Assembly (NCBI RefSeq): GCF_002160985.1
Contig: NZ_NFLQ01000004.1
Coordinates: 186,001-250,000, forward strand
Direction: 5' to 3'
Source: Lachnoclostridium sp. An118
GTDB lineage: Bacteria > Bacillota > Clostridia > Lachnospirales > Lachnospiraceae
DNA: 64,000 bases
The translations under genes and the position numbers were made by a program. This document shows positions 8,014 through 57,806 of this stretch, one piece after another (the first letter of the stretch is position 1; each line of letters begins with the position of its first letter). A model generated the notes under the pieces. It had not been told where the DNA came from, ran no database searches, and worked only from the letters and a program-made list of their open reading frames with translations.

Positions 8014-8087
8014 CGTGGGCAAGAGGATTCGAACCCCCGACCTTCTGGTCCGTAGCCAGACGCTCTATCCAGCTGAGCTATGCCCAC
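8014..8087 (-). tRNA. tRNA-Arg(ACG)
   Basis: Seventy-four bases fold as a complete cloverleaf on the minus strand: acceptor stem GTGGGCA/TGCCCAC, D arm GCTCAGCTGGATAGAGC, anticodon stem TCTGG/CCAGA with loop CTACGGA giving anticodon ACG, and T arm with GGTTCGAATC. The discriminator base is G and CCA is not encoded. It has its own consensus promoter and terminator. Confidence 0.97.
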
Positions 8088-24682: not shown

Positions 24683-24697
24683 GGAACATGTAAATTG

Positions 24698-24836
24698 CAT
24701 AGGGGGAGCTTGTAGACAGGCTGAGAGGAAGTTGGGAACTTCGACCCGGGAACCTGATTTGGATAATGCCAACGTAGGGAAATAGATGAGAGACTGCGGG
24801 AAATGGCATGATGCCATTTCCCTTTTCTTATTTTGC
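24698..24836 (+). promoter_or_regulatory. TPP riboswitch with terminator
   Basis: The conserved THI-box cores are present: GGGGGAGC, AGGCTGAGA, GACCCGGGAACCTGAT and GGATAATGCCAACGTAGGGA (aptamer about 24698-24790). The expression platform is a strong terminator: GGGAAATGG (24798-24806) pairs with CCATTTCCC (24814-24822), followed by TTTTCTTATTTT. TPP binding should stop transcription before the thi genes. Confidence 0.95.
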
Positions 24837-47315: not shown

Positions 47316-47651
47316 ATGACGGAGAAAAAGATCAGAGAAGTTCTGGATAAATTTGCAGAGGAAGCAAAAAAGATATATGGGACAAAACTGGAAAGTCTTA
47401 TATTATATGGCTCATGTGCACGAGGTGATTTTGAAAATGACAGTGATATAGATATTTTGATCCTGTTGAATGTTCCCTTAGAGAGTATCAATTCTGAAAG
47501 AAAACGTATTCTGGATATATCTGATAAACTTGACCTGGAGTATGATGTTGTATTAGCTCCTGTGGTCCAGAATTATGAACTGTATCAAAAATATATTTCA
47601 GTATCGGTATTCTATCAAAATGTGGAAAGAGAGGGTGTGAAGATTGCCTGA
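47316..47651 (+). CDS. MNT-type nucleotidyltransferase, putative antitoxin
   Basis: 111 residues. The minimal nucleotidyltransferase motif is GSCARGDFENDSDIDIL near residues 36-52, with a third acidic residue in LEYDVVLA. It overlaps the HEPN gene by 8 bases. In characterised HEPN/MNT pairs the MNT protein neutralises the HEPN toxin by adding nucleotides to it. That role here is inferred from pairing. Confidence 0.88.
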   Translation: MTEKKIREVLDKFAEEAKKIYGTKLESLILYGSCARGDFENDSDIDILILLNVPLESINSERKRILDISDKLDLEYDVVLAPVVQNYELYQKYISVSVFYQNVEREGVKIA

Positions 47652-48051
47652 TCACAATTCTTTACAGAAGGATTATGCAAAATATCGAATAGAGCGCGCA
47701 AGAGAAGATCTGGAGGCGGCTCATTTGCTTTATGATGCAGGCAATTACAGGATTGCAAATAACCGCGCCTATTATGCTATATTTCATGCTATGAGAGCAG
47801 TTCTTGTCTTTGATAATTTTGACTCCAGCAAGCACAGTGGGGTGATCGCGGAATTTAGACGAAGGTATATCAAAGAAGGCATATTTCCTATTGAGATATC
47901 AAAGATGATAGGTTCCGCATTTACAATCCGTAATGCTTCGGATTACGATGATATGTTTATTGCAAGTAAAAGTGAAACGGAAGAGCAGATAAACAACGCG
48001 GAATATGTATACAGAATTCTGTCAGAATATATCAGCCGTCAAACCATCTAG
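47644..48051 (+). CDS. HEPN-domain protein, putative toxin partner
   Basis: 135 residues, all helical. ARNRAYYAIFHA-like segment (NRAYYAIFHAMRAVL) and RNASDYDDMF match the HEPN fold. The R-x4-H RNase motif of HepT toxins is not clear, since the equivalent position reads RNASDY, so RNase activity is doubtful. Start is TTG 47644 after AGAGGGTG, inside the MNT gene end. A terminator follows. Confidence 0.85.
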   Translation: MPDHNSLQKDYAKYRIERAREDLEAAHLLYDAGNYRIANNRAYYAIFHAMRAVLVFDNFDSSKHSGVIAEFRRRYIKEGIFPIEISKMIGSAFTIRNASDYDDMFIASKSETEEQINNAEYVYRILSEYISRQTI

Positions 48052-48070
48052 AAAAATATATTGAATAATG

Positions 48071-48100
48071 GCACAGGGAAGGAACTCTCTGTGCTTTTTT
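48071..48100 (+). terminator. terminator of MNT/HEPN operon
   Basis: GCACAGGGA pairs with TCTCTGTGC (one G-U), followed by TTTTTT. A further hairpin ATGCCGGG/CCCGGCAT lies at 48157-48189. Confidence 0.8.
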
Positions 48101-48403
48101 AGTGTGATCTGCTGAAAAAATACAGATACACCAGAAAAACCCCCTAAAACGGGAGGATGCCGGGTGACCGATTTCTCAGTCCCCGGCATGTATTATGAAA
48201 AAGTTTATTCCAATAGTATTTCTACTACGAAGCGTCTTGATTTATTTGATGGTTTTAGTATAAGGCAGAGCTGTGAAGAAATGGTGTTCAAGAAATGAAA
48301 CTTTTTTAAATGATAAATGAACAAATTATGAACGAAGGAAATTTTACGTAGATTTTACAAGACCTTGATCTTGAGAAAAGGAAAGAACGATATACTGTAG
48401 GTA
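48101..48403. other. intergenic region before structured RNA
   Basis: About 300 AT-rich bases with no convincing gene. Contents: the ATGCCGGG/CCCGGCAT hairpin (48157-48189) and a TATACT -10-like element at 48391-48396 placed to start transcription at about 48403. Confidence 0.4.
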
Positions 48404-48601
48404 AAGCAATGTTGGGGCAAAAGCCCCCGGCTACGATGCCTGCGGATTGTTCCGTGCTGCGCACTCTCACAATCCTACCCGATATTCGCATATCGTGGGA
48501 TATACATCCCACTTTTATGCTCATATCGGGGCGGGTCCCAAGGTCTTTCACCCACTTATGAGCAAGCTCATGTGGGCTTAGACCTTTTGCCCCTGGCATC
48601 G
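48404..48601 (+). ncRNA. candidate structured RNA of unknown class
   Basis: About 200 bases with many perfect complementarities. Closing stem: GGGGCAAAAG (48414-48423) with CTTTTGCCCC (48584-48593). Inside: GGATTGT/ACAATCC (48444-48450, 48469-48475) enclosing GTGC/GCAC; CCCGATAT/ATATCGGG (48478-48485, 48523-48530) enclosing GTGGGAT/ATCCCAC; AAGGTCT/AGACCTT (48540-48546, 48580-48586) enclosing CCCAC/GTGGG and ATGAGC/GCTCAT. CGATGCC (48434-48440) can pair with GGCATCG (48595-48601), crossing the closing stem as a pseudoknot. I know no named family with this layout. It ends 29 bases before the PhoH gene. Strand is inferred from a -10 element. It could instead be a dispersed palindromic repeat. 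Confidence 0.6.
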
Positions 48602-48630
48602 ATAAATATGATCCGGAAAGGGGATACTCT

Positions 48631-50004
48631 ATGGTAAAGATCTATGTGCTTGATACGAATGTCCTGATCCAGGCGCCCTATGCAGCCGAGTGCTTTGAGG
48701 ACAACCAGGTGGTGCTGCCCATGGCTGTGCTGGAGGAGCTTGACCATCTGAAGAAAGCGGAGGGGGAGAGAGGCGTGAGCGCCAGGCGGGCTATCCGGTT
48801 CCTGGAGCAGCTCCGCCACAGGGGAGACCTGCTCGCCGGTGTACCGCTTCCCGGAGGGGGAAGCTGCCGGGTGGAGAGGAACTATGTGGATGTGAAGCTT
48901 CCGCCTGAGCTGTCCGAGGAGGTCATGGACAACCGGATACTGAAGGTATGCTTGGGCCTTAAGAACACCCGCGAGGAGCAGGTGGTACTTGTGACCAAGG
49001 ACATCCTTCTTCGCATTAAGGCGCAGATCCTTGGGATATCCGCCGAGGACTTTACGACGGAGCAGGTGTTTGACAACGAAAACCAGTACAAGGGCAGGAT
49101 CGAGGTGTACGTGCCTGAGGAGATCTTCAAGGATTTTAAGAAAAAGGGCATCCCGGCCCAGTGCGTGTACGTGACGGACGGGGAGGGAAACCGGTTTGCG
49201 CCGGAGCTCACAGAAAACCAGTTTGTCATACTGCGGGCGGACCAGTCCGTGAAAAAGACACATCTGGGAAGAGTGGAAAGCGGAGTCATCCGGAAGCTGG
49301 AGTACAAAAAGAGCGCACCCTACGGCATCCATCCGAGGAACGCGGGGCAGTATTTTCTCCAGGAGGCCCTCATGCAGCCGGCAAAGACGGCGCCTCTTGT
49401 CATCGTCAAGGGCATGGCGGGCACCAGCAAGACCTTCTACTCCCTGGCAGTGGGGCTTGAGAAGGTGCTGAACAATCCCACAGGGGAGTACAGGCGGATA
49501 CTGGTGTGCAGGCCCAATGCGCAGTTCGACTCGGATATCGGCTTTCTGCCGGGGGATGAGCAGGAGAAGATTTCACCGCTGATGCGGCCCATCATCGACA
49601 ACCTGGAGCAGCTGATCGACTCCAACGAGGAGGAGCGGTACGCGGATGAGGATGAGCTGAAGGGGAAGATAGAGGAAATCTTTGCCAGAGGTCTGATACA
49701 GACAGAGGCCATGAATTATATCAGAGGCCGGTCCATCATCAAGACCTACCTTATCATAGATGAGGCCCAGAACATGACGCCCAACCAGATAAAGGGCATC
49801 ATCACCAGGGCGGGGAAGGATACCAAGATCATCCTCCTGGGCGACCCGGACCAGATAGACCGGCCCTTCCTGGACGAGAGGACCAACGGTCTCAGCTACG
49901 CCTCGGAGCACATGAAGGGCAGTCCCTTGTGCTGGCAGGTGACCATGACGGCGGAGGAGTGCGAGAGGTCCGAGCTGGCCATGGACGCCATCCGGCGATT
50001 GTAA
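48631..50004 (+). CDS. PIN-PhoH family ATPase/ribonuclease
   Basis: 457 residues: an N-terminal PIN RNase domain (YVLDTNVLIQAP, EELDHLK; residues 1-150) and a C-terminal PhoH ATPase domain with Walker A GMAGTSKTFYS near residue 262 and Walker B YLIIDEAQNMTP near 372, then LLGDPDQID. This YlaK-type fusion is thought to unwind and cut RNA. GGAAAGGGG precedes the ATG. The structured RNA lies directly upstream and may be part of the leader. Confidence 0.93.
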   Translation: MVKIYVLDTNVLIQAPYAAECFEDNQVVLPMAVLEELDHLKKAEGERGVSARRAIRFLEQLRHRGDLLAGVPLPGGGSCRVERNYVDVKLPPELSEEVMDNRILKVCLGLKNTREEQVVLVTKDILLRIKAQILGISAEDFTTEQVFDNENQYKGRIEVYVPEEIFKDFKKKGIPAQCVYVTDGEGNRFAPELTENQFVILRADQSVKKTHLGRVESGVIRKLEYKKSAPYGIHPRNAGQYFLQEALMQPAKTAPLVIVKGMAGTSKTFYSLAVGLEKVLNNPTGEYRRILVCRPNAQFDSDIGFLPGDEQEKISPLMRPIIDNLEQLIDSNEEERYADEDELKGKIEEIFARGLIQTEAMNYIRGRSIIKTYLIIDEAQNMTPNQIKGIITRAGKDTKIILLGDPDQIDRPFLDERTNGLSYASEHMKGSPLCWQVTMTAEECERSELAMDAIRRL

Positions 50005-56528: not shown

Positions 56529-57296
56529 ATGAGCAGGATAGAAGCGGTGATCTTTGACTGGGCGGGCACGACTGTCGATTACGGGTGCTTTGCCCCGGTC
56601 CAGGTCTTTACAGAGGTGTTTAAAAACGCGGGCGTGGAGCCCACCATGGAGGAGGTGCGGGAGCCCATGGGCATGCTGAAGTGGGACCACATAAGGACCA
56701 TGCTGGAGATGCCCAGGATCAGATCGGCCTGGAAGGAGCTGTACGGGAGGGAGCCCGAGGACGAGGACGCGGACAAGCTGTACGAGAGCTATGAGCCCTC
56801 TCTTCTGAAGATACTGGACCAGTACTCGGACCCCAAACCCTATGTGCTGGAGACAGTGCAGGCCTTGAGGGATAAGGGGATCAAGATTGGGTCCACCACA
56901 GGCTACACGGATGTGATGATGGGCATTGTGGTCCCCAGAGCAAGGGAGCTGGGATATGAGCCGGACTGCTGGTTCAGCCCCGACTCCACCGGCGGCATGG
57001 GCCGCCCTCATCCCTACATGATATTCAGGAACATGGAGGAGCTGAAGGTGAGTGCTGTGGACAGGGTAATAAAGGCGGGAGATACCATCTCTGACATCAG
57101 GGAGGGAAAGAACGCCGGCGTCTTTACCATCGGTATCCTGGAGGGAAGCTCCCTCCTGGGACTGTCCAGGGAGGAGTATGAGTCTCTCCCTGAGGCGGAG
57201 AAGGAGAAGCTCCTGAAGGAGGGAGAGGAAAAGTACAGGGCCGCGGGGGCGGACGCCGTGGTGAGAGATATCCGGGGCATCCTGGAGTACATATGA
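56529..57296 (+). CDS. phnX: phosphonoacetaldehyde hydrolase
   Basis: About 255 residues, HAD fold. Cleaves phosphonoacetaldehyde to acetaldehyde and phosphate. FDWAGTTVDYGCFAP carries the nucleophile Asp; the Schiff-base Lys is in MGMLKWDHI. KAGDTISDIREGKNAG is motif IV. ATG 56529 follows GCGGAGGAG. A decarboxylase remnant continues in the same frame directly after the TGA. Confidence 0.95.
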   Translation: MSRIEAVIFDWAGTTVDYGCFAPVQVFTEVFKNAGVEPTMEEVREPMGMLKWDHIRTMLEMPRIRSAWKELYGREPEDEDADKLYESYEPSLLKILDQYSDPKPYVLETVQALRDKGIKIGSTTGYTDVMMGIVVPRARELGYEPDCWFSPDSTGGMGRPHPYMIFRNMEELKVSAVDRVIKAGDTISDIREGKNAGVFTIGILEGSSLLGLSREEYESLPEAEKEKLLKEGEEKYRAAGADAVVRDIRGILEYI

Positions 57297-57806
57297 TGCC
57301 AGGGTCAAAAGGTTATCATATATGATAAAAAGGCGGGCAGAGGTTTTATCCTGCCTGCCTGGGATCTGGGACCGGAGCTGACGCGGCCGGCCAGGGGCCT
57401 GAAGCTGTGGCTCACGCTCCAGACTATGGGGACAGAGGAGATGGGGCGTGTGGTGGACCACGGCTGCGAGCTGGCAGAGCTGGCGGCGGGGCTCATCAGG
57501 AATGCGCCGGAGTGGGAGCTTCTGTCCGGTCCCTGGCTGGGGATCGTGAACTTCCGCTACAGGGCGGACGGCTCCCTGACTGAGGCGGAACTGGACGAGA
57601 CCAACCAGGAGATATCCGTGGAGATGACCGGTAGCGGCTTCGCCCAGGTCTTTACGACAGAGCTGACAGGGAAGAAGGTGCTGCGCATGTGCATCGTTAA
57701 CCCGGAGACGACAGAGGAGGATGTACGCCGGACCATTGGGAAGATGATGAAAGCAGAGGCCGTCTTGGAGCGGGACAGAGCCAGAAAGAAAAGCAGGACA
57801 GCGTAG
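57297..57806 (+). pseudogene. 3' remnant of a PLP group II amino-acid decarboxylase
   Basis: The frame after the phnX stop reads IIYDKKAGRGFILPAWDLG, then ELTRPARGLKLWLTLQTMG and continues to TAG 57806. This matches the C-terminal third of aromatic amino acid/glutamate-type decarboxylases, but everything before, including the PLP Lys, is missing and no upstream start exists. An internal ATG at 57426 could give at most 126 residues without an active site. A deletion fusing phnX to this tail is the simplest explanation. Confidence 0.8.

Follow-up and report, generated by a model that had tools for sequence, protein, structure and literature searches.

A probable MITE-like copy of the Clostridiales-1 RNA family inserted backwards in the phoH leader of Lachnoclostridium sp. 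An118

Among the short bacterial repeats that fold extensively, BOX and RUP of Streptococcus pneumoniae are considered, in the accessible part of the paper describing them, probable MITEs with extensive secondary structure (PMC3049150). In these repeats the element that is the subject of this study has its closest counterpart in kind, being likewise short, interspersed and highly base-paired, and it can also be likened to the Correia elements and ERIC, named in the accessible part of the same paper, as structured MITE-like repeats that alter the transcripts they enter. On the RNA side, the closest described system is Clostridiales-1 (RF01699), a candidate RNA of unknown function dating from 2010 (Weinberg et al., 2010; PMC2864571), which the corresponding table row of that paper gives as probably RNA, not cis-regulatory and without a switch. 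Its host group is the same as that of the element found here; the Rfam model and, as far as it is accessible, the main text of PMC2864571 contain neither a 3' end hairpin nor terminal repeats, target-site duplication or mobility. In the titles and abstract openings of the open-licence literature we found no statement that Clostridiales-1 is mobile, and no report in that literature linking the RNA family to a mobile element. The family is a known one and the element of an ordinary kind; for the copies that carry both end repeats, here termed two-ended, a link between them is well supported. An Rfam orphan family gains in this way a natural history, in that at least one of its types moves.

The window, that is the whole stretch of 64,000 nucleotides of Lachnoclostridium sp. 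An118 that was analysed, contains a densely folded interval in front of the gene of a PIN-PhoH protein (phoH). A preliminary description, which read the stems on the plus strand, had proposed for it a new structured RNA, a leader that PhoH controls or a dispersed repeat. In a covariance-model search of the window, the minus strand gave a full-length match to RF01699 covering all 166 model positions with the same three-arm structure (Table 1), and cmscan reported the family on the minus strand only, even at E up to 1. Since the 168-base core also folds to a lower energy on this strand (-86.7 vs -78.1 kcal/mol), the stems stand and the strand has to be exchanged. Against shuffled sequences, z was -5.76 for the plus strand of 48390-48640, -9.11 for the minus strand of the 196-base element folded as RNA and -8.44 for the same strand folded as DNA, and in none of the three did any of 200 shuffles do as well; the minimum-energy fold of the minus strand recovers the Rfam closing stem and the three arms with small shifts. 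The folding at phoH is real, as the preliminary description had seen, but the family is already catalogued and not new, its publication going back to 2010 (PMC2864571).

The pairings for which that description gave coordinates exist: GGGGCAAAAG at 48414-48423 is perfectly complementary to CTTTTGCCCC at 48584-48593, CGATGCC at 48434-48440 pairs with GGCATCG at 48595-48601, and both CGATAT (48480-48485) and ATATCG (48490-48495) are present. What changes is their interpretation. The 7-base pairing taken as one side of a pseudoknot is found to be the Rfam closing stem itself, and the long closing pairing crossed by it (48414-48423 with 48584-48593) joins the terminal inverted repeats; the two share one end region, so they are alternatives and no pseudoknot is demonstrated. 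Similarly, CGATAT had been given two states, local and long-range, and the family structure has the second, with 48480-48485 placed in arm 2 and paired with 48523-48528. The natural unit is also slightly displaced, from 48404-48601 to 48407-48602, with a short duplication on both sides.

Table 1. Parts of the element and of the neighbouring phoH leader (positions in the window).
Feature	Position	Strand	Basis
Whole mobile element, 196 bp	48407-48602 (boundaries +/- 1 base)	-	absent as one block in G005, G009, G006, G010 and G003; terminal inverted repeats shared with other copies
RF01699 domain, model 1-166	48434-48601	-	146.8 bits vs gathering score 48
Target-site duplication, left copy TAAAG	48402-48406	.	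G005 reads GTAGGTAAATATAATCC at the empty site
Target-site duplication, right copy TAAAT	48603-48607	.	G005 empty-site alignment
Terminal inverted repeat, 5' end of family strand, TCGATGCCAGGGGCAAAAG	48584-48602	-	sequence
Terminal inverted repeat, 3' end of family strand, CTTTTGCCCCAACATTG	48407-48423	-	consensus CTTTTGACCCCAACATCA elsewhere; one base shorter here
Ends of the element, TGATRYYRGGGTCAAAAG			
3' end hairpin GGGGC-TTTT-GCCCC, outside the Rfam model	48414-48427	-	predicted fold; 3' end motif in 23/82 copies
Closing stem, 5' strand	48595-48601	-	Rfam structure and covariation
Closing stem, 3' strand	48434-48440	-	Rfam structure and covariation
Arm 1, CUUG tetraloop	48534-48592	-	Rfam structure, fold; GCUUGC in 25/29 distinct rows of alignment A1
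Arm 2	48478-48530	-	Rfam structure, fold, covariation
Arm 3, most conserved	48444-48475	-	two helices, with 99.5 and 99.1% of cells paired
TATACT, -10-like box conserved in the phoH leader	48391-48396	+	kept in G005, G009, G006, G010 and G003
Terminator-like hairpin GTGGGAT-ATAC-ATCCCAC and TTTTATGC, arm 2 as seen from the phoH strand	48495-48512	+	weak T tract
GGAAAGGGG, likely phoH ribosome-binding site, untouched by the insertion	48615-48623	+	identical in G005 and G009
PIN-PhoH protein, 457 aa	48631-50004	+	Pfam PF02562 and PF13638

The comparison of the locus with its relatives is informative on how this arrangement arose. Counting the genome of the window, 6 of 11 in the genus were found to have a phoH at 84% identity or more, and the element is absent at phoH in all five congeners thus identified (G005, G009, G006, G010 and G003), in whose phoH loci the covariance model built here gave no match at E up to 5. 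In the first four, the leader sequences to the left and right of the missing element can both be aligned: G005 reads GATATACTGTAGGTAAATATAATCCGG, and in the window GATATACTGTAGGTAAAG is followed by the element and by (A)TAAATATGATCCGG; at the empty site of G003 the sequence is TACTGTAGATAAAATTATCTGATCCGG. The duplication in the window, TAAAG/TAAAT, contains one substitution and can equally be written GTAAA/ATAAA, shifted by one. The TATACT box, around which a consensus promoter scan detected no -35/-10 pair, and the ribosome-binding site are intact after the insertion, and the element is reversed relative to the family strand.

A cis-regulatory leader of phoH working on the plus strand through two switchable states would agree with the position of the element between TATACT and the ribosome-binding site, and with a plus strand that folds well too and has a terminator-like hairpin (four terminator-like sites were found in 48040-48640 vs 0.6 expected). 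We consider this reading very improbable, as phoH lacks the element in the five congeners and, in the named set, sense and antisense copies are almost balanced in co-directional gaps; the proposal of a leader controlled by PhoH finds no support on the same grounds, the other copies lying at many sites and, in that set, in both orientations to the neighbouring genes. Instead, the duplications of the two-ended copies described below, the variable copy number and the empty phoH site indicate that the window copy is a non-autonomous, MITE-like mobile element with a covarying three-arm fold, inserted backwards in the phoH 5' leader.

Matches to RF01699 were found in 25 of 61 relatives, in 17 of them over the cut-off and with 0 to 35 copies each; full scans gave 41 copies in G013 and 32 in G012. 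These many scattered copies bear out the dispersed repeat of the preliminary description. The genome of the window has, in a full scan, three matches, one of which is a 33-base fragment, and 4 of 10 congeners are without any match. The 10 loci related to that of the second own copy (contig C8) gave no covariance-model match up to E = 5, and the flanks of this copy vary too much to show a clean duplication. A lone exact copy of the end repeat, TGATGCCAGGGTCAAAAG, lies at 57294-57311 (+) of the window without an RF01699 match and is perhaps a remnant.

In some of 82 copies collected in relatives the sequence goes on beyond the 3' limit of the Rfam model with a hairpin that terminates in CTTTTGACCCCAACATCA, an inverted copy of the 5' end TGATRCCAGGGTCAAAAG. 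In a two-ended set of 43 de-duplicated copies having both end repeats, the target duplication is exact over 5 bases in 26 and over 6 bases in 4, and the mean identity of the 5-bp flanks is 0.819, compared with 0.563 (sd 0.026) for randomly paired left and right flanks; at lengths of 4, 7 and 8 it is near background. The target of these copies is palindromic and A/T-rich (A-TWWTA-T). The two-ended copies carry the marks of MITEs, namely terminal inverted repeats, a target duplication of fixed length, dispersed copies and, at phoH, an empty site in five congeners. The window copy belongs to this type, and it is outside the 43 because its 3' end is one base short of the search motif. Since this 3' end occurs, within 4 edits, in only 23 of the 82 copies, the evidence of mobility regards that type and not every RF01699 match; copies with other closing stems and other ends are common and may be mobile as well.

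Several variants of the basic arrangement were observed. L012, L003 and others stop at the closing stem of the Rfam model and lack both the 3' end hairpin and any evident duplication. L253:392-462, L254:406-443 and L255:356-393 are miniatures of 38-71 bases, in which the body between the two end repeats is very short or missing, and the first has TTATA on both flanks. Head-to-tail arrays of the fold with a period of 145-152 bases are found at G013:C26:11921-12365, where adjacent placements of the model share 8 bases at the closing stem, and at G057:C1:1032209-1032955. BOX is modular and expandable as well, according to the accessible part of its description (PMC3049150), and the arrays resemble it in this respect.

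Insertion into -10 boxes was also considered, in the light of TATAAT-like boxes at -15 to -6, just in front of the 5' end, with 45 hits in 82 left flanks vs 11 in 80 control flanks. Such a promoter targeting was rejected, as at 17 bases the -35 is not enriched relative to the control side (mean 2.00 vs 1.94) and the copies have A-TWWTA-T as their target. A search by end motif for an autonomous partner in these draft genomes returned none in 20 regions around end repeats nor in G012, in which 69 end sites within 3 mismatches form zero convergent pairs at 0.7-3 kb; in two longer convergent end pairs elsewhere, the enclosed reading frames were not recognised, by eye, as transposases.

The genes around the copies were assigned by a longest-ORF heuristic, in place of curated genes, and the counts that follow are to be read accordingly. 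A role as leader was suggested by the 82 copies in relatives, whose downstream gene is on the same strand in 61 cases, on the opposite strand in 15 and undecided in 6. By a stricter count, limited to co-directional gaps, the ratio of sense to antisense copies is 25:22 in the named set, to which the window was added, 29:3 in G012 and G013 together and 10:6 in the other relatives, so that the strand bias comes mainly from G012 and G013, is absent in the named set and a general leader role does not follow. Unlike BOX and RUP, which are over-represented between convergent genes in the accessible part of PMC3049150, two-ended copies lie at 16 divergent and 2 convergent sites; for copies with other ends the corresponding numbers are 19 and 16.

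The hosts are mostly Lachnospiraceae in the samples searched. In a draw of 291 genomes across the class under strict filters, 9 match, 8 of them over the cut-off; 7 are in the family of the window (own genome included), 1 is in the same order and 1, weak, is elsewhere. A pattern scan of public genomes detected at least 120 stretches, and among the matches listed most are from Lachnospiraceae or other Clostridia, one is labelled Bacteroides and one Lactobacillus. The hosts of the Correia elements and of ERIC belong to other phyla. The plasmids searched contained no match to the element; 17 unannotated faecal 'Bacteriophage sp.' records (H1-H17) match it wholly or partly and one IMG/VR contig also matches (L243:12294-12461), due either to phage carriage or to bacterial carry-over.

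The fold of the family is old and has accumulated changes on both sides of its helices. In an alignment of 29 distinct copies made from sequence only, in which the reference L129 counts once, 84.5% of cells pair and two-sided changes occur in 52 of 61 pairs; there are 271 such cells vs 97 in shuffles, with 0 of 500 shuffles as high, and slid controls were all far lower. The covariance search proposed in the preliminary description has in this way returned both a known family and homologues with compensatory changes, and its structured RNA is upheld. Compensatory changes and the behaviour of a mobile repeat, which it had opposed to each other, are present together in these data. At cells flanked by Watson-Crick (WC) pairs, the ratio of G-U to A-C is 25:4, 41:22 and 43:12 in alignments A1, A2 and A3, respectively, values that are descriptive, the sequences being related and partly shared among the alignments and A2 and A3 being fitted to the model. 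A small control on the TPP riboswitch from relatives of the genome of the window (30 sequences, with 16 pairs taken from a predicted consensus fold) gave 19:0, and a G-U share of the standard WC-flanked pairs about 5 times that of A2 and A3 (12% vs about 2.3%).

These data bear in different ways on a free-standing, trans-acting non-coding RNA gene that is merely often duplicated, as the Rfam label 'Gene; sRNA' implies. The CUUG tetraloop is stable in RNA, and its conservation in arm 1, the strong covariation and the excess of G-U over A-C in the three alignments all speak for such a gene; nevertheless, two-ended copies start right at the target duplication with only the A/T-rich target in front, so that no promoter travels upstream with them, congeners without any match exist, and the TPP control is much richer in G-U. 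We regard it, all considered, as improbable.

The age of the changes adds a further indication. Between nearest-neighbour copies about 95% alike, 124 pairs have changed, comprising 42 WC-GU, 22 A-C, 32 other WC-mismatch, 10 two-sided and 18 other changes, and the two-sided ones are 10 of 1748 pairs overall. Between neighbours about 75% alike two-sided changes become the largest class, 198 of 451, vs 74 GU, 33 A-C, 124 other mismatch and 22 other. For this test the comparisons available in the TPP control are too few. We read the one-sided changes at about 95% and the two-sided ones at about 75% as single copies that decay and lineages that keep the fold, and this fits selection on the element.

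The same pattern could, on the other hand, originate in DNA, if template switching corrected imperfect palindromes and selection acted on hairpin DNA in transposition rather than on RNA. Template switching can create and maintain hairpins, as reported in the accessible part of PMC8794818, and the low G-U share relative to the TPP control and A-C mismatches that are, per type, about as frequent as other mismatches point in this direction. Correction events should, however, be visible precisely at 95% identity, where two-sided changes are few; moreover, G-U still exceeds A-C on one strand and the loop letters, which are conserved among copies, are left unexplained, so that we hold this origin to be rather unlikely.

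Taken together, the interval is very probably one copy of a non-autonomous MITE-like element whose body is the Clostridiales-1 fold, which would be moved in trans and in which the fold would be kept for the element itself. In this model, an element of about 200 bp ending in inverted repeats would be mobilised by a transposase of the cut-and-paste type supplied in trans, producing 5-base target duplications at A-TWWTA-T sites. The fold would serve the element's own propagation, as RNA within a transcript or as single-stranded DNA, rather than a need of each host gene. In the window, the element would have jumped in reverse orientation between the promoter and the ribosome-binding site of phoH, making the short leader of this gene about 200 bases longer; a cis-regulatory role for phoH is unlikely, and any effect on the gene, for instance a weak attenuation due to the hairpin at 48495-48512, would be incidental. 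Only tentatively, and with more doubt than confidence, can the model be extended to Clostridiales-1 as a whole, which would then be a selfish, gene-less structured element requiring a folded RNA or single strand for spreading and retaining a three-arm fold of RNA grade throughout a bacterial family, with conserved loops recognised by a transposase or a host protein. Mobility changes how the covariation, the copy number and the 'sRNA' label of the family are to be read, and it raises a general question that can be tested, namely how often RNA-like covariation marks mobile DNA repeats and not host regulatory RNAs.

Other features were noticed in the vicinity of the element. A candidate small RNA, for which Rfam gave no match up to E = 1, lies at 48130-48272 on the minus strand, and in the window it is followed by a terminator-like site. 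The region 48125-48400 has matches, some of them short, in 18 of 61 genomes of 8 genera, and 12 of these were aligned. TATACTA is found in 10 of the 12 and TATAATA in the other 2, the stem of a GC hairpin varies in a compensatory manner (GCCGGG/CCCGGC, GCCCAGC/GCTGGGC, GCCAAGC/GCTTGGC), and all 12 have CCUCCC, which could pair with Shine-Dalgarno sequences. Upstream of about 48115 the sequence differs in the aligned congeners, and the pair of nucleotidyltransferase (PF01909) and HEPN (PF05168) genes located there (47316-48051, +), resembling a known toxin-antitoxin type, may be a separate insertion. A TPP riboswitch (24692-24797, +) and a tRNA gene (8014-8087, -), both ordinary, are found elsewhere in the window.
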